Part shown: piece by piece, positions 151-22,877 of the stretch
How positions within the stretch are numbered: position 1 is the stretch's first letter
How the letters are laid out: every line of letters starts with the position of its first letter
Virus record (IMG/VR): IMGVR_UViG_3300006802_000553
Location: 1-24,274 of that record
DNA length: 24,274 bases
Direction: 5' to 3' (one strand)
Source: a virus
Translations under genes and position numbers: made by a program
The notes under the pieces: generated by a model
Database searches by the model: none
What the model was told of the DNA's origin: nothing
The model's input: only the letters and a program-made list of their open reading frames with translations

Positions 151-399
151 ATGAACAGGCCGTATACTAGCAAGATCAATGGACAAGAGGCCGAGTTCTA
201 TAACGAACTGATAGCTCAACTCGTCGAGCGCAGGAAAAAATTAAACCTAAGCCAAGCTGACCTAGATCAAATGATCGGAGTATCTGAATCTATGGTTGCT
301 AAGTGGGAAAGCAAAGCAAGATTGCCGGGCGCATTTGTGCTGATGTGCTGGGCAAAAGCTTTAGGATTAAAACTATATGCGAAAGAAGAAAGCCAATGA
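151..399 (+). CDS. Cro/CI-type (XRE) helix-turn-helix regulator
   Basis: This 82-residue protein has the helix-turn-helix pattern of the phage Cro/CI (XRE) family at about residues 22-66: a helix with two arginines, then LSQADLDQMIGVSESMVAKWE, where SQADL is helix 2 and SESMVAKWE the recognition helix. A short tail follows, so it is a single DNA-binding domain without a dimerisation or LexA-like cleavage domain. It probably binds operators in the phage genome to control early or lysogeny genes, though no operator is identified here. The ATG follows a G-rich stretch that can fold into a hairpin. Its TGA overlaps the next annotated start in an ATGA junction. A lytic-phage regulator is as possible as a lysogeny repressor, since no integrase is visible. 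Confidence 0.85.
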   Translation: MNRPYTSKINGQEAEFYNELIAQLVERRKKLNLSQADLDQMIGVSESMVAKWESKARLPGAFVLMCWAKALGLKLYAKEESQ

Positions 400-6819: not shown

Positions 6820-8670
6820 TCAAGGCTGCTGTGCTGTAAATGAAGGGAAGTTCCAAGACAGCAAGCCAGTGCCAGAGGTGCGCTTAGCTACCAATCTAAC
6901 GTAATAGTTTGTCGAAGCGGTAAGTCCAGTAACTGTTGTTGGGCCTACCTCTACATACCCCGGCTCTTCTTCTCCCGGCGTGTTAATTGGCGCGGATCCC
7001 GTAGCACTAGCCACAACCGTCCAGTTAGAATTGTCAGAAGAATATTGAGTTTGAATCTGAGCAGTTGTGTTGCCCTGATACATAGCGTTTGCGTTTAGTT
7101 TTAGTTGACCGCTGCCATCTGATTGAACCTGTGCGTCAGCATCCGTTACAGCAACGTAGGTAGCAGTCGAAATGTTGTCCCAAGTCTGGTCAGTAAAGCT
7201 TGTAGAGCCGCTTGTGCCGCCAGAAATAGGGGCGGCTAAGCTGCGGCTAACCACAATGCTCTTGTTGTAAGTAACGCCCTCAAAAATAACAGGCACAACA
7301 ATAGAGCCAGCAGCATTAGCGACTGTCAAACTTACATTGACCACCCCTGTGGCGACAGAAGCAGTAGCCGTAATCCCTGTAGTGGGATTAAGAGTACCAA
7401 CCGTAACGCCAGAAGTCTGCTGAACGCCGCCCTTATAAACCTTAATGCCGCGAGTAAGCGGCAAGCCAGTGGTCGTTATGCCAGATGCGTCAGCTTGTAT
7501 GATAAACGGATCTACATCAGCGATGACAATCTGATTAGACGAAGTGACATCAGCCACCTGAGAAGACCAGTTGCTACCATTCCAACGGTAAAGAATACCA
7601 TCATCAGTATCGTACCAAAGATCTCCAACGCCTTCGGCAGTTGGAGCAGACGCAGAATAAAAGGTCGTTACCTTTCCGTCCGCTGTTGCCTGAGCAGTCG
7701 CAGCATTAGCAATTGCAGTTGCAATTGCGCTATCTTGAATGGCGACAAAAGATGTCCCGTTATGACGATACAGTTTGTTCCCGTCATTTGTGTCAATCCA
7801 AAAGTCACCAAGGCTTCCGCCAACTGGTGCATCGTTCTGGTAAAATGATTCAATCTTTCCATCAGCTGTGCTTTGCGCTGTTGCGGCATTAGCAATTGCA
7901 GTAGCAGCATTCGCCAACGCCAGATCTGCATCTGCTTGAGCAGCATCGGCATCCGCCTGAGCGGCATCAGCATCAGACTGCACCCCAGCAATTGAGGCTG
8001 TAAGAGTTGCATTAAGGGAGCTAATGCTAGAGCCGAGAGAGCTAATGCTGGAGTCAATTGCGTTTAGCTTGGCTTGAACATTGGTTCCGCTTGTAGTCTG
8101 AACCAAAGAAGCGCCTTGGTTAACAGCAGTGTTGGCAAGATCCTGCCGCAAACCGCTATCGCCAGTACCAGTGCTAACGGCGACCTGACCATTGCTATCA
8201 AAAACAAGATACTTGTTTGTACGCAAACTCTTGGCGGGAATAGTTAAGAGGTCAAGGGGGCTGTCGCCATCAGCCAGCTTGAAAACGCGACTGTCCAAAG
8301 TAGTCTGCAAGTTTTGCAGATTGACAATAATACGATCAAGATCGTTGTTTAAGGAGTCAATGTTAAATGGGCCAGCAAGCGGGAAGTCCGTAAGACGCTC
8401 GACAGTTACCTCACGAGAAATAACAATCACATCATTCAAAGCAGCGCCCGGACTGCCAAGAGTAATACTCCCACCGCCAGTAACGTTAGCACCAGTTACC
8501 GAGTACTCATTGGCATTTGCTGGGGTAGCATCGTAAGTAAGCTCAACGCCATTCTTATAGACATTAAGATTAGCGTTTTCAAAAAACTCAAACGGCACAG
8601 CAAACGTAACCTGCCCCGAAGTGGCAGTATACTCTACTCGTGAGGTGTTATCGTTAATTATAATTGGCAT
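6820..8670 (-). CDS. Tail fibre protein
   Basis: The 616-residue protein starts with a virion-attachment domain (about 1-170): YTATSGQVTFAVPFEFF, NVYKNGVEL and ISREVTVERLTDFP, as in T7 gp17-like tail fibres. A rod follows (about 175-265) with heptad-type Ser/Leu and repeated DADAAQA units, expected to form a trimeric coiled coil. Two tandem 57-residue units follow (257-313 and 317-373), each ending in GD-x-W-x-DT...YR-x-NG. After that come a beta-rich Ig-like region (about 378-480) and a fibronectin-like end with TVTGLTASTNYYVRLVA. The C-terminal half is likely to contact the host surface. The ggag site is nine bases before the ATG, and a copy of the repeated late motif lies 42 bases upstream. 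No reverse transcriptase is present, so no diversity-generating system is evident. Confidence 0.88.
   Translation of the reverse strand: MPIIINDNTSRVEYTATSGQVTFAVPFEFFENANLNVYKNGVELTYDATPANANEYSVTGANVTGGGSITLGSPGAALNDVIVISREVTVERLTDFPLAGPFNIDSLNNDLDRIIVNLQNLQTTLDSRVFKLADGDSPLDLLTIPAKSLRTNKYLVFDSNGQVAVSTGTGDSGLRQDLANTAVNQGASLVQTTSGTNVQAKLNAIDSSISSLGSSISSLNATLTASIAGVQSDADAAQADADAAQADADLALANAATAIANAATAQSTADGKIESFYQNDAPVGGSLGDFWIDTNDGNKLYRHNGTSFVAIQDSAIATAIANAATAQATADGKVTTFYSASAPTAEGVGDLWYDTDDGILYRWNGSNWSSQVADVTSSNQIVIADVDPFIIQADASGITTTGLPLTRGIKVYKGGVQQTSGVTVGTLNPTTGITATASVATGVVNVSLTVANAAGSIVVPVIFEGVTYNKSIVVSRSLAAPISGGTSGSTSFTDQTWDNISTATYVAVTDADAQVQSDGSGQLKLNANAMYQGNTTAQIQTQYSSDNSNWTVVASATGSAPINTPGEEEPGYVEVGPTTVTGLTASTNYYVRLVAKRTSGTGLLSWNFPSFTAQQP
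7552..7902 (-). repeat. Two tandem 57-residue repeats in the tail fibre gene
   Basis: Residues 257-313 (bases 7732-7902) and 317-373 (7552-7722) align throughout: ATAIANAATAQ[SA]TADGK, a variable loop, then GD[FL]W[IY]DT[ND]DG, YR[HW]NG. The alanine-rich half is likely coiled coil and the GDLW half a small beta unit. They are diverged copies of one unit, presumably from an old duplication that lengthened the fibre. Confidence 0.85.
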
Positions 8671-8712: not shown

Positions 8713-8726
8713 TATCAATGGACTAA
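8713..8726 (-). promoter_or_regulatory. Late motif copy B, ahead of the tail fibre gene
   Basis: On the minus strand this reads TTAGTCCATTGATA, identical over 14 bases to the copy at 22864-22877. Its TAG is the stop codon of the 1256-residue ejection protein, and it ends 42 bases before the fibre start. It does not match a host sigma-70 promoter well. A role as a phage-specific promoter or operator is inferred from repetition and location. Confidence 0.5.
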
Positions 8727-18648: not shown

Positions 18649-19473
18649 TTACGCTTCGTGCGACTGTACTTCGTACACGCCATTAGCATCGATCAGTACC
18701 GTACCCTGCGACATCATCGACGTAGCAAGGTGAGCGGCCTTCTCAGGCACATAGTTCAGTTCAGTCGAAACTTCAGCACCCGAAGCAAGGCCGATAGCCG
18801 AGCGGTGGTATGCAAAGTTCTTACGCTTGTTGGTAGCAATGGGCAGACCCGAGAAGGTCATCCACATGAAGCCAAGCCAACGACGAGCAACCATGCCGCC
18901 CTTGTACGGGAGGTCGTCTGCACCAACAAAGTCAGCGTCCGAGAACGCCGAAATGCCGAGCAGATCCGTCCAAGCGCGAGGCGACACAACGAAGTAACGC
19001 TCGCCATCGTCAGGAACGTCATTGTTGCCGAAGGCAGCAAAGACCGTCTCTACCTTGTCGAGAGTCAAACCGTCAGTACCAGCTTCGACAATGGCATTGG
19101 TCGTGCCATCAAGCGCGGTGGTAATGAGTTCGTCCGACTTGCGACCAATCGCAGCAGCAGCCGACTGAGTAACAACCATACGTTCGTCGTGGTTGATCTT
19201 CAGTTCGTCCAGCTTGTCGATGTAGTCAGCAGCGTAGTAGTCGCCCAGAGTACATTCAACATTGGTGTGGTCGATGGTCATGAGCGGCACGTTGCCGTGA
19301 CGCGACTTCGTGCCAGCGGTGCCGGTTCCAACCTTCTGGAAGGTGGTGCTTGCACCCTTAACGTTCGACTTGGAACGCACAGTGTTACGCAGCTTGGAAC
19401 CCATGCGCTGATAAGCCATGTGGACTTCCGATTCAAACTGCTTCACAAAGGCGTCATTAATATCTTGAGCCAT
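18649..19473 (-). CDS. Major capsid protein
   Basis: The 274-residue protein fits the HK97-fold capsid group found in BPP-1-like podoviruses and some siphoviruses. It starts with FVKQFESEVHMAYQRMGSKL, has TTFQKVGTGTA, a GNVPLMTIDHTNVECTLGDY stretch that leads to YIDKLDELKINHDERM, then an AAAAIGRKSDELITTAL helix and FVVSPRAWTDLLG. The C-terminus has AIGLASGAEVSTELNYVPEK. It should form the icosahedral shell together with the scaffold encoded two genes upstream. The ribosome-binding site (ggagg, seven bases before the ATG) is strong and codon use looks more restricted than in neighbours, as for a highly expressed gene. A strong terminator follows and a late-motif copy lies 127 bases upstream. 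Confidence 0.92.
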   Translation of the reverse strand: MAQDINDAFVKQFESEVHMAYQRMGSKLRNTVRSKSNVKGASTTFQKVGTGTAGTKSRHGNVPLMTIDHTNVECTLGDYYAADYIDKLDELKINHDERMVVTQSAAAAIGRKSDELITTALDGTTNAIVEAGTDGLTLDKVETVFAAFGNNDVPDDGERYFVVSPRAWTDLLGISAFSDADFVGADDLPYKGGMVARRWLGFMWMTFSGLPIATNKRKNFAYHRSAIGLASGAEVSTELNYVPEKAAHLATSMMSQGTVLIDANGVYEVQSHEA

Positions 19474-19580
19474 AATAGCCTCCGTATAATTGACGATGAG
19501 TTCAGTCGGTTATCCGTACCTAGCTTCTTGAAGTTATCCTTACGGGCTTCGTCCGCAATTAACGGGCCTGACGCAGAAAT

Positions 19581-20060
19581 CTAATGAGTGGGGTTTAATT
19601 TCAATGGACTAATTAGTTTAGTATACATCTTTCCAGTTTCTTCATAGCCAAGCTTAAGAAAGAAACTTTCGGAACTATCTGTTCTAACGCCTGTTGTTAC
19701 TCCAACGCGAATAGCTTTTGCTCCGCGAGATATACCCCAAGCTTCGGCAAACTTAACCATTCTTAAGGCTGCGCTTGTTCCACGTGAAACAGGCAGGACA
19801 TAAAAAGACAAGTCTTCTACGAAATCATCGGTGCCAAAAAACGTTTGAATGATTGCCACTGCCATAAAGCCAACAACCTGCGAGTCCCTTTCTGCCACTA
19901 CACAGTAAAAGTCATTGTTAGTCAAAAACACTTTGACTAGCGATAGAACCTTATCTGGATCGTAAGGGTAAATGCTGTAGTGAGGGGACTCAGAGTGCAT
20001 CGCCTCGGTTAGCTTCATAATCGAGGCGGTGTCACTTTCCCTAAGCTCTCGGACAATCAT
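19581..20060 (-). CDS. GNAT family N-acetyltransferase
   Basis: The 159-residue protein has the GNAT fold pattern: IVRELRESDTASIMKLTEAM at the start, VVAERDSQVVGFMAVAI for beta strands 2-4, and LSFYVLPVSRGTSAALRM as motif A that binds acetyl-coenzyme A. Here RGTSA replaces the usual R/Q-x-x-G-x-G/A. FFLKLGYEETG is the typical C-terminal strand. It would move an acetyl group from acetyl-CoA to an amine, but the substrate cannot be told. Its gene lies between scaffold and capsid and overlaps the scaffold stop by four bases (ATGA), so it is made with the head proteins; a structural protein or a host factor are both possible targets. No ribosome-binding site is seen, so coupling is likely. Confidence 0.88.
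   Translation of the reverse strand: MIVRELRESDTASIMKLTEAMHSESPHYSIYPYDPDKVLSLVKVFLTNNDFYCVVAERDSQVVGFMAVAIIQTFFGTDDFVEDLSFYVLPVSRGTSAALRMVKFAEAWGISRGAKAIRVGVTTGVRTDSSESFFLKLGYEETGKMYTKLISPLKLNPTH
19601..19612 (-). promoter_or_regulatory. Late motif copy C, ahead of the capsid gene
   Basis: On the minus strand this reads TTAGTCCATTGA, matching 12 bases of copies A and B. It lies within the last codons of the GNAT gene, in a frame where TTAG is not a stop, and 127 bases before the capsid ATG. Preservation despite lying in coding sequence, and its place ahead of the most highly expressed late gene, make a promoter or operator plausible. Confidence 0.45.
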
Positions 20061-22583: not shown

Positions 22584-22820
22584 TTACCCCAAAAGGCCGC
22601 GAGCCATAAACCCCTGACCGCCTTTGCGTCCAGAAATCAAGGAGCGGAATCCATAACTTCCAGTTGCACGAGCGATGGCTTCTCTGGTTCTGCGCTCTTT
22701 GCTTTCGGCTTTCTCGCTTGCAAGCTGAGCCTTCAATGCTTCACGCTGCTCTTTAAGTTCACGTTCTGCGGCCAGTTCGTCCGCTGTGGGTGCTGGCATT
22801 TTAGGTTTTTTAAAACACAT
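22584..22820 (-). CDS. Small basic structural or assembly protein
   Basis: The 78-residue protein begins MCFKKPKMPAPTADELAAER, has a charged helix rich in Glu, Lys and Arg, and ends with RTREAIARATGSYGFRSLIS followed by a Gly/Arg-rich end (GRKGGQGFMARGLLG). Such Pro-start, Gly/Arg-end small proteins are common between terminase and portal in short-tailed phages and may correspond to T7 gp6.7 or gp7.3-type virion components, but this is a guess from position and composition. A ggag site is eight bases before the ATG, and motif copy A is 43 bases upstream. Confidence 0.78.
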   Translation of the reverse strand: MCFKKPKMPAPTADELAAERELKEQREALKAQLASEKAESKERRTREAIARATGSYGFRSLISGRKGGQGFMARGLLG

Positions 22821-22863: not shown

Positions 22864-22877
22864 TATCAATGGACTAA
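22864..22877 (-). promoter_or_regulatory. Late motif copy A, after the terminase gene
   Basis: On the minus strand this reads TTAGTCCATTGATA, identical over 14 bases to copy B. Its TAG is the terminase stop codon, and it ends 43 bases before the start of the small basic protein gene, almost the same distance as copy B from the fibre gene. It could start a transcript for the portal, scaffold and capsid block. Confidence 0.5.

Follow-up and report, generated by a model that had tools for sequence, protein, structure and literature searches.

A conserved sequence word at late-gene boundaries of a viral genome probably forms the extended -35 part of late promoters

A 14-base motif that recurs at late-gene boundaries of the virus record IMGVR_UViG_3300006802_000553 is, judged from sequence comparisons, with high probability functional. 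The explanation that fits best, and that is regarded as probable, is that a set of late promoters has it as an extended -35 block and that these promoters would be recognized by host RNA polymerase carrying a sigma factor of the sigma-70 type. According to this model TTG would be the -35 triplet, an A at position +29 or +30 would be the -11 base of a weak -10 box, and transcription would start near position +40, right at the ribosome-binding site or at a leader RNA of the capsid gene. The GTCCA part, whose letters change together within a genome, would be bound by a factor that the phage encodes and that aids the polymerase at otherwise poor promoters, and the best candidate for this factor would be a small helix-turn-helix (HTH) protein, XREA. 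An activator is likely because the -10 box is weak, and the chances that one is needed at these promoters are put at about even. The identification of this activator with XREA is tentative and somewhat less probable than that.

The window, i.e., the whole stretch of 24,274 nucleotides that was analysed, carries early genes on the plus strand at its left end (YqaJ, ERF, SSB and the HTH protein). The minus strand encodes terL, a 78-aa protein, portal, a scaffold-like protein, a GNAT acetyltransferase, capsid, tail, internal virion proteins and fibre. It was verified that the three motif copies are situated on the minus strand, exactly where an earlier note had placed them, two of them as the complete TTAGTCCATTGATA and one as the 12-base form TTAGTCCATTGA at 19612-19601, which is identical to the first 12 bases of TTAGTCCATTGATA (Table 1). 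It was likewise verified that copies 1 and 3 supply the stop codon of the preceding gene, TAG in both cases, and that they end 43 and 42 bases, respectively, before the next ATG (22820 and 8670). Copy 2 (19612-19601) lies within the last codons of the GNAT gene, and the capsid ATG follows 128 bases downstream. A fourth GTCCATTG at 187-174 on the minus strand is antisense within the HTH gene, has three mismatches to the 14-mer and is not associated with a gene boundary; it is probably a chance occurrence. The GNAT gene itself (19581-20060, minus strand) has been retained in most relatives at its place between the scaffold and capsid genes, which is an unusual one.

Table 1. Positions of the motif copies, of proposed promoter elements and of neighbouring features in the window
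Feature	Position	Strand	Remarks
Motif copy 1, TTAGTCCATTGATA	22864..22877	-	Holds the TAG stop of terL; proposed -35 TTG at 22869-22867
A at +29 (copy 1), proposed -11 A of a degenerate -10	22845	-	Statistic over 81 sites
Predicted transcript start (about +40)	22834	-	Inferred; 14 bases ahead of the ATG of the 78-aa gene
78-aa gene	22584..22820	-	First gene past motif copy 1, followed by portal
Motif copy 2, TTAGTCCATTGAAA	19599..19612	-	In the end of the GNAT gene, upstream of the capsid gene; proposed -35 TTG at 19604-19602
A at +29 (copy 2), proposed -11 A	19580	-	88% of capsid-type sites
Structured capsid leader RNA	19504..19572	-	First helix from 19569, the predicted transcript start
Major capsid gene (Phage_capsid_2)	18649..19473	-	After motif copy 2
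Motif copy 3, TTAGTCCATTGATA	8713..8726	-	Holds the TAG stop of a large internal virion gene, upstream of the fibre gene; proposed -35 TTG at 8718-8716
A at +30 (copy 3), proposed -11 A	8693	-	81-site statistic
Fibre gene	6820..8670	-	After motif copy 3
XREA, 82-aa Cro/CI-type helix-turn-helix protein	151..399	+	Early strand; candidate regulator

In the whole window, TCAATGGACTAA is the sole 12-mer that occurs three times on the same strand. The earlier note had put the probability of such a triple at roughly one in a hundred windows; this figure was too low, as 6 of 200 dinucleotide shuffles of the window, about 3%, also contained a same-strand 12-mer triple. The window taken alone is weak evidence for the motif for this reason, and it was conservation in relatives that settled the matter and confirmed that the repeat is real.

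For this comparison, two IMG/VR scans supplied 160 loci whose capsid or terL genes are homologous to those of the window. The core GT(C/G)C(A/G)TTG was present on the late strand at homologous places, namely ahead of terS, at the terL stop, ahead of the capsid gene and ahead of the fibre gene. The earlier note had named absence from these places in close relatives as evidence against its reading, and the respective search revealed that the motif is present at the homologous boundaries. At the terL stop, the core GTCCATTG was found in nearly all members with a terL identity of at least 68%, in differing reading frames and with the stop codon either inside or behind the core. At terL identities of 65-68% the form at this place is TTTGTGCGTTG, and some of these members are devoid of the motif. 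The same core lies 130-150 bases ahead of the capsid ATG and about 50 bases ahead of the fibre ATG in relatives, and 20 large contigs carry further copies at the start of the late arm. In the GTCCATTG clade, a manual count over 13 large contigs yielded 53 copies on the late strand versus 4 on the other strand.

The two variable letters of the core (positions 2 and 4) were compared between the terL and capsid sites of one and the same phage, using the 27 non-redundant phages that have both sites. They agreed in 25 of the 27 phages, compared with a mean of 11.4 and a maximum of 18 after shuffling. Sites at unrelated gene ends thus change together, which is the mark of a common reader.

A scan of viral contigs with the exact 14-mer retrieved mostly unrelated phages, as chance predicts, and its matches are informative only at homologous places. 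The motif was absent from more distant prophage and MAG contigs (capsid identity below 60%), with the exception of the Rhodobacterales MAG contig L347. Inspection by eye revealed ordinary sigma-70-like pairs right before the capsid gene, in the place of the motif, in L330, L332, L333, L335, L336, L338, L340 and L355, examples being TTGTCC-N17-TATACT and TTGACA-N17-TATAAC. Ordinary -35/-10 pairs were seen by eye at the pre-capsid place of several Micavibrio and Desulfovibrio contigs.

The geometry downstream of the motif was characterized with 81 non-redundant sites, and the G of GTCCATTG was counted as position 0. The information content was confined to positions -3 to +8 around this G, plus an A at +29/+30. 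This A was present in 86% of the 81 sites, whereas other offsets had an A in 49%; an equally high share did not occur in any of 2000 jittered sets. In the fibre-class sites taken alone the signal was weak (96 of 2000 jittered sets were equally high); in the pre-capsid sites the A was anchored to the motif (88%) and not to the leader (62%). The distance from the motif to the capsid leader RNA was 41-46, the Shine-Dalgarno sites were mostly found at +39 to +47 from the G, and the start codon of the next gene was never nearer than +40, while in four sites it was at exactly 40 or 41. If TTG is taken as the -35 triplet, the A would be the -11 base and +40 the predicted start. The internal sites kept GTSCRTTG but lost the ACA, with TTGAC in only 3 of 72, and no clear -10 hexamer was visible at them in the 81-site alignment. 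A fixed TANNNT -10 common to all sites was sought and not found. It counts against the promoter model that the predicted 5' untranslated regions would be 10-14 bases long, with the Shine-Dalgarno sequence at the extreme 5' end, which is unusual.

The -35 register is directly visible at the sites ahead of terS. In the relatives their TTG was extended to TTGACA in 36 of 39 cases, so that they read GTNCRTTGACA, and the best -10 match was situated 17-19 bases after the -35, with only a modest -10 enrichment. In several pre-terS sites the GTSCR part had decayed while the TTGACA was still there. There is thus a trade-off: the motif is strictest at the internal sites with their poor core promoter and looser at the strong pre-terS promoter, which suggests a reader of GTSCR that aids a weak promoter. 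The view of the earlier note that the motif does not resemble a sigma-70 promoter is therefore probably wrong, considering the TTG in -35 register, the pre-terS sequence GTSCRTTGACA with a -10-like sequence 17-19 bases on, and the A at -11 elsewhere. Its proposal of a phage-specific promoter or operator has good support in its first half, for which the conserved boundaries, the late strand, the concerted variants and the fixed spacing argue; a plain repressor operator is less likely. In many relatives (e.g., L152, L160 and G003) G runs (GGGGGGG) or CGCGCGCG were observed 35-45 bases past the pre-terS motif, and these are possibly a packaging site (pac or cos).

Candidate readers were looked for among polymerases, sigma factors and HTH proteins. 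A search with PF00940 (RNA polymerase) had no match in 22 records, and its control was likewise silent; the ORF lists of near-complete relatives contained no unexplained gene of the size of an RNA polymerase. Sigma-70 region 2 was not detected in 22 phage records, with a control that responded in 11 of 14 cases. Matches to sigma region 4 stayed below the cut-off, and some of them were on HTH proteins, including XREA. The latter contains an HTH_3 domain (42 bits versus a Pfam cut-off of 23), has the P22 c2 repressor among its PDB matches, and its PHROG match is annotated "CII-like regulator". All 18 motif-bearing contigs in which the respective region is covered encode XREA, it was not found in G022 and MEP301, both of which are motif-less, and Hodr, from which the motif is absent, has only a divergent fused form. 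In GTSCATTG phages the KWE signature of XREA is preceded by A, N or S, whereas GTGCGTTG phages mostly have H or G at this position. These residue variants track the two main clades and fit the idea that XREA is the reader, but they are not independent proof, because both the presence and the variants of XREA follow phylogeny. The usual targets of XREA relatives (P22 c2 type) are palindromes, to which these proteins bind in dimeric form; the motif, unlike their sites, is a single non-palindromic block.

Further candidates were tried and rejected. XREB, the product of a neighbouring HTH gene, is absent from the window's own subclade and cannot be a general reader. A protein similar to DnaA domain IV occurs in one motif-less record and is missing from several motif carriers. 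This small early protein, whose similarity lies in its GNRDHSTVLH signature, is encoded at 33840-34265 (minus strand) of G007 and is present in about half of the relatives. A search for genes common to motif carriers returned many structural genes. The contig L356 (7815 bases, from the sample series of the near-identical L004) encodes an identical XREA protein; it extends about 1 kb past the left end of the window, and a 370-aa gene is found there in the place of XREB.

Several known systems share features with the putative promoters. CII of phage lambda recognizes the direct repeat TTGC-N6-TTGC around the -35 of the promoters PRE, PI and PaQ. Common to both cases would be a phage HTH activator with a site around or overlapping the -35 of a weak host-type promoter, but here one block of 8-11 bases runs into the -35, and a CII-type direct repeat TTGC-N6-TTGC flanking the -35 was not found in the 81 sites, the information being restricted to the block from -3 to +8. 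In addition, the best Pfam match of XREA is HTH_3, and its link to CII exists only via the PHROG annotation. The middle promoters of T4 also have a phage-specific block at the -35 region (the MotA box) and are used by the host polymerase, without a phage polymerase; however, a MotA box stands in for the -35 and is combined with a good -10, whereas here the TTG of the -35 is kept and the -10 is poor. T7-like phages (Autographiviridae) have several copies of one oriented word before their late modules and a similar order of structural genes. In contrast to them, a phage RNA polymerase was not found here, the block comprises 10-11 bases, and the predicted start lies 40 bases further on.

The HTVC010P-type and related marine podoviruses (Skadi, Hodr and MEP301) have homologous terminase and capsid genes. 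Skadi, which is of the HTVC010P type, is reported to be without an RNA polymerase and to use that of the host, and sigma-70 promoters were named only near its replication genes (PMC10504331). The motif word was not found in the 29.8 of 34.2 kb of Hodr that were read, and it was not at the homologous places in the 25.2 of 34.8 kb of MEP301. The literature searched, to which subscription papers mostly did not belong, contained no description of late promoters of the HTVC010P-type group.

Apart from a host-type promoter, the motif could be the operator of a phage repressor, e.g., XREA, which would cover the -35 and keep the late genes silent, either at an early stage of infection or in the lysogenic state. 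The matches of XREA to HTH_3 and to the P22 c2 repressor are in favour of this, as is the overlap of the pre-terS site with a near-consensus -35. It is nevertheless unlikely, because the motif is single and non-palindromic, and because its strictness at weak internal promoters and looseness at the strong pre-terS promoter are the reverse of what a repressor predicts; moreover, an integrase was not seen when the ORF lists of two near-complete relatives were inspected by eye. Less probable still is a function in RNA, where the word would be repeated along a single long late transcript and serve, for example, antitermination (nut-like) or processing. Such a signal would agree with oriented copies at gene ends, several of them per transcription unit, but hairpins after the motif were not beyond chance (mean z -0.33 to 0.01, 97 sites): directly behind it they had appeared common by eye, and they did not exceed dinucleotide shuffles. 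The fusion to TTGACA before terS and the fixed spacing to RNA signals also suit a promoter.

The promoter of a single-subunit phage RNA polymerase, with a T7-like start right after the motif, would explain the short oriented block, its several late copies and their concerted change within genomes, and it would go along with the T7-like order of head and tail genes. It is very improbable, since PF00940 gave no match (with the silent control mentioned above), no unexplained gene in near-complete relatives has the size of such a polymerase gene, the RNA signals begin 40 bases downstream and not immediately after the block, and the pre-terS site contains TTGACA. The shuffles that also contain a 12-mer triple speak for a chance repetition or an inherited gene-end sequence without function; as the word is conserved at gene boundaries that are not homologous to each other, in three frames and with concerted variation, this explanation is close to negligible.

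The sites might even represent a phage-specific class of late promoters, in which one small Cro/CI-type protein recognizes a half-site joined to the -35 TTG and makes a -10 box dispensable. Reader and sites would coevolve across a large marine podovirus lineage, and each transcript would open directly with the ribosome-binding site, the start codon or the structured leader of the capsid gene. This extended proposal is speculative and has a lower probability than the identification of the activator with XREA. Marine podoviruses without an RNA polymerase of their own are abundant. The word is traceable through 160 uncultured relatives and comes with a named candidate regulator, which makes the switch from early to late expression in this group testable, and a late-promoter word would also aid the annotation of operons in metagenomic phages.

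The leader RNA ahead of the capsid gene consists of two stacked helices, each with an AYAA bulge (AUAA/ACAA). In an alignment of 19 sequences 93% of the cells pair, and 8 of the 13 pairs have changed on both sides. The covariation score was 0.377, versus 0.03-0.10 for slid versions, whereby the structure had been drawn from the same 19 sequences, which favours its score. No Rfam family matched the window, the leader included. The leader appears to be a new, covarying RNA and is a second, separate candidate control element. With a covariance model it was also located ahead of the capsid gene of several distant contigs, in part at weak E-values, and the matches included Pelagibius contigs and, weakly, Pseudodesulfovibrio.
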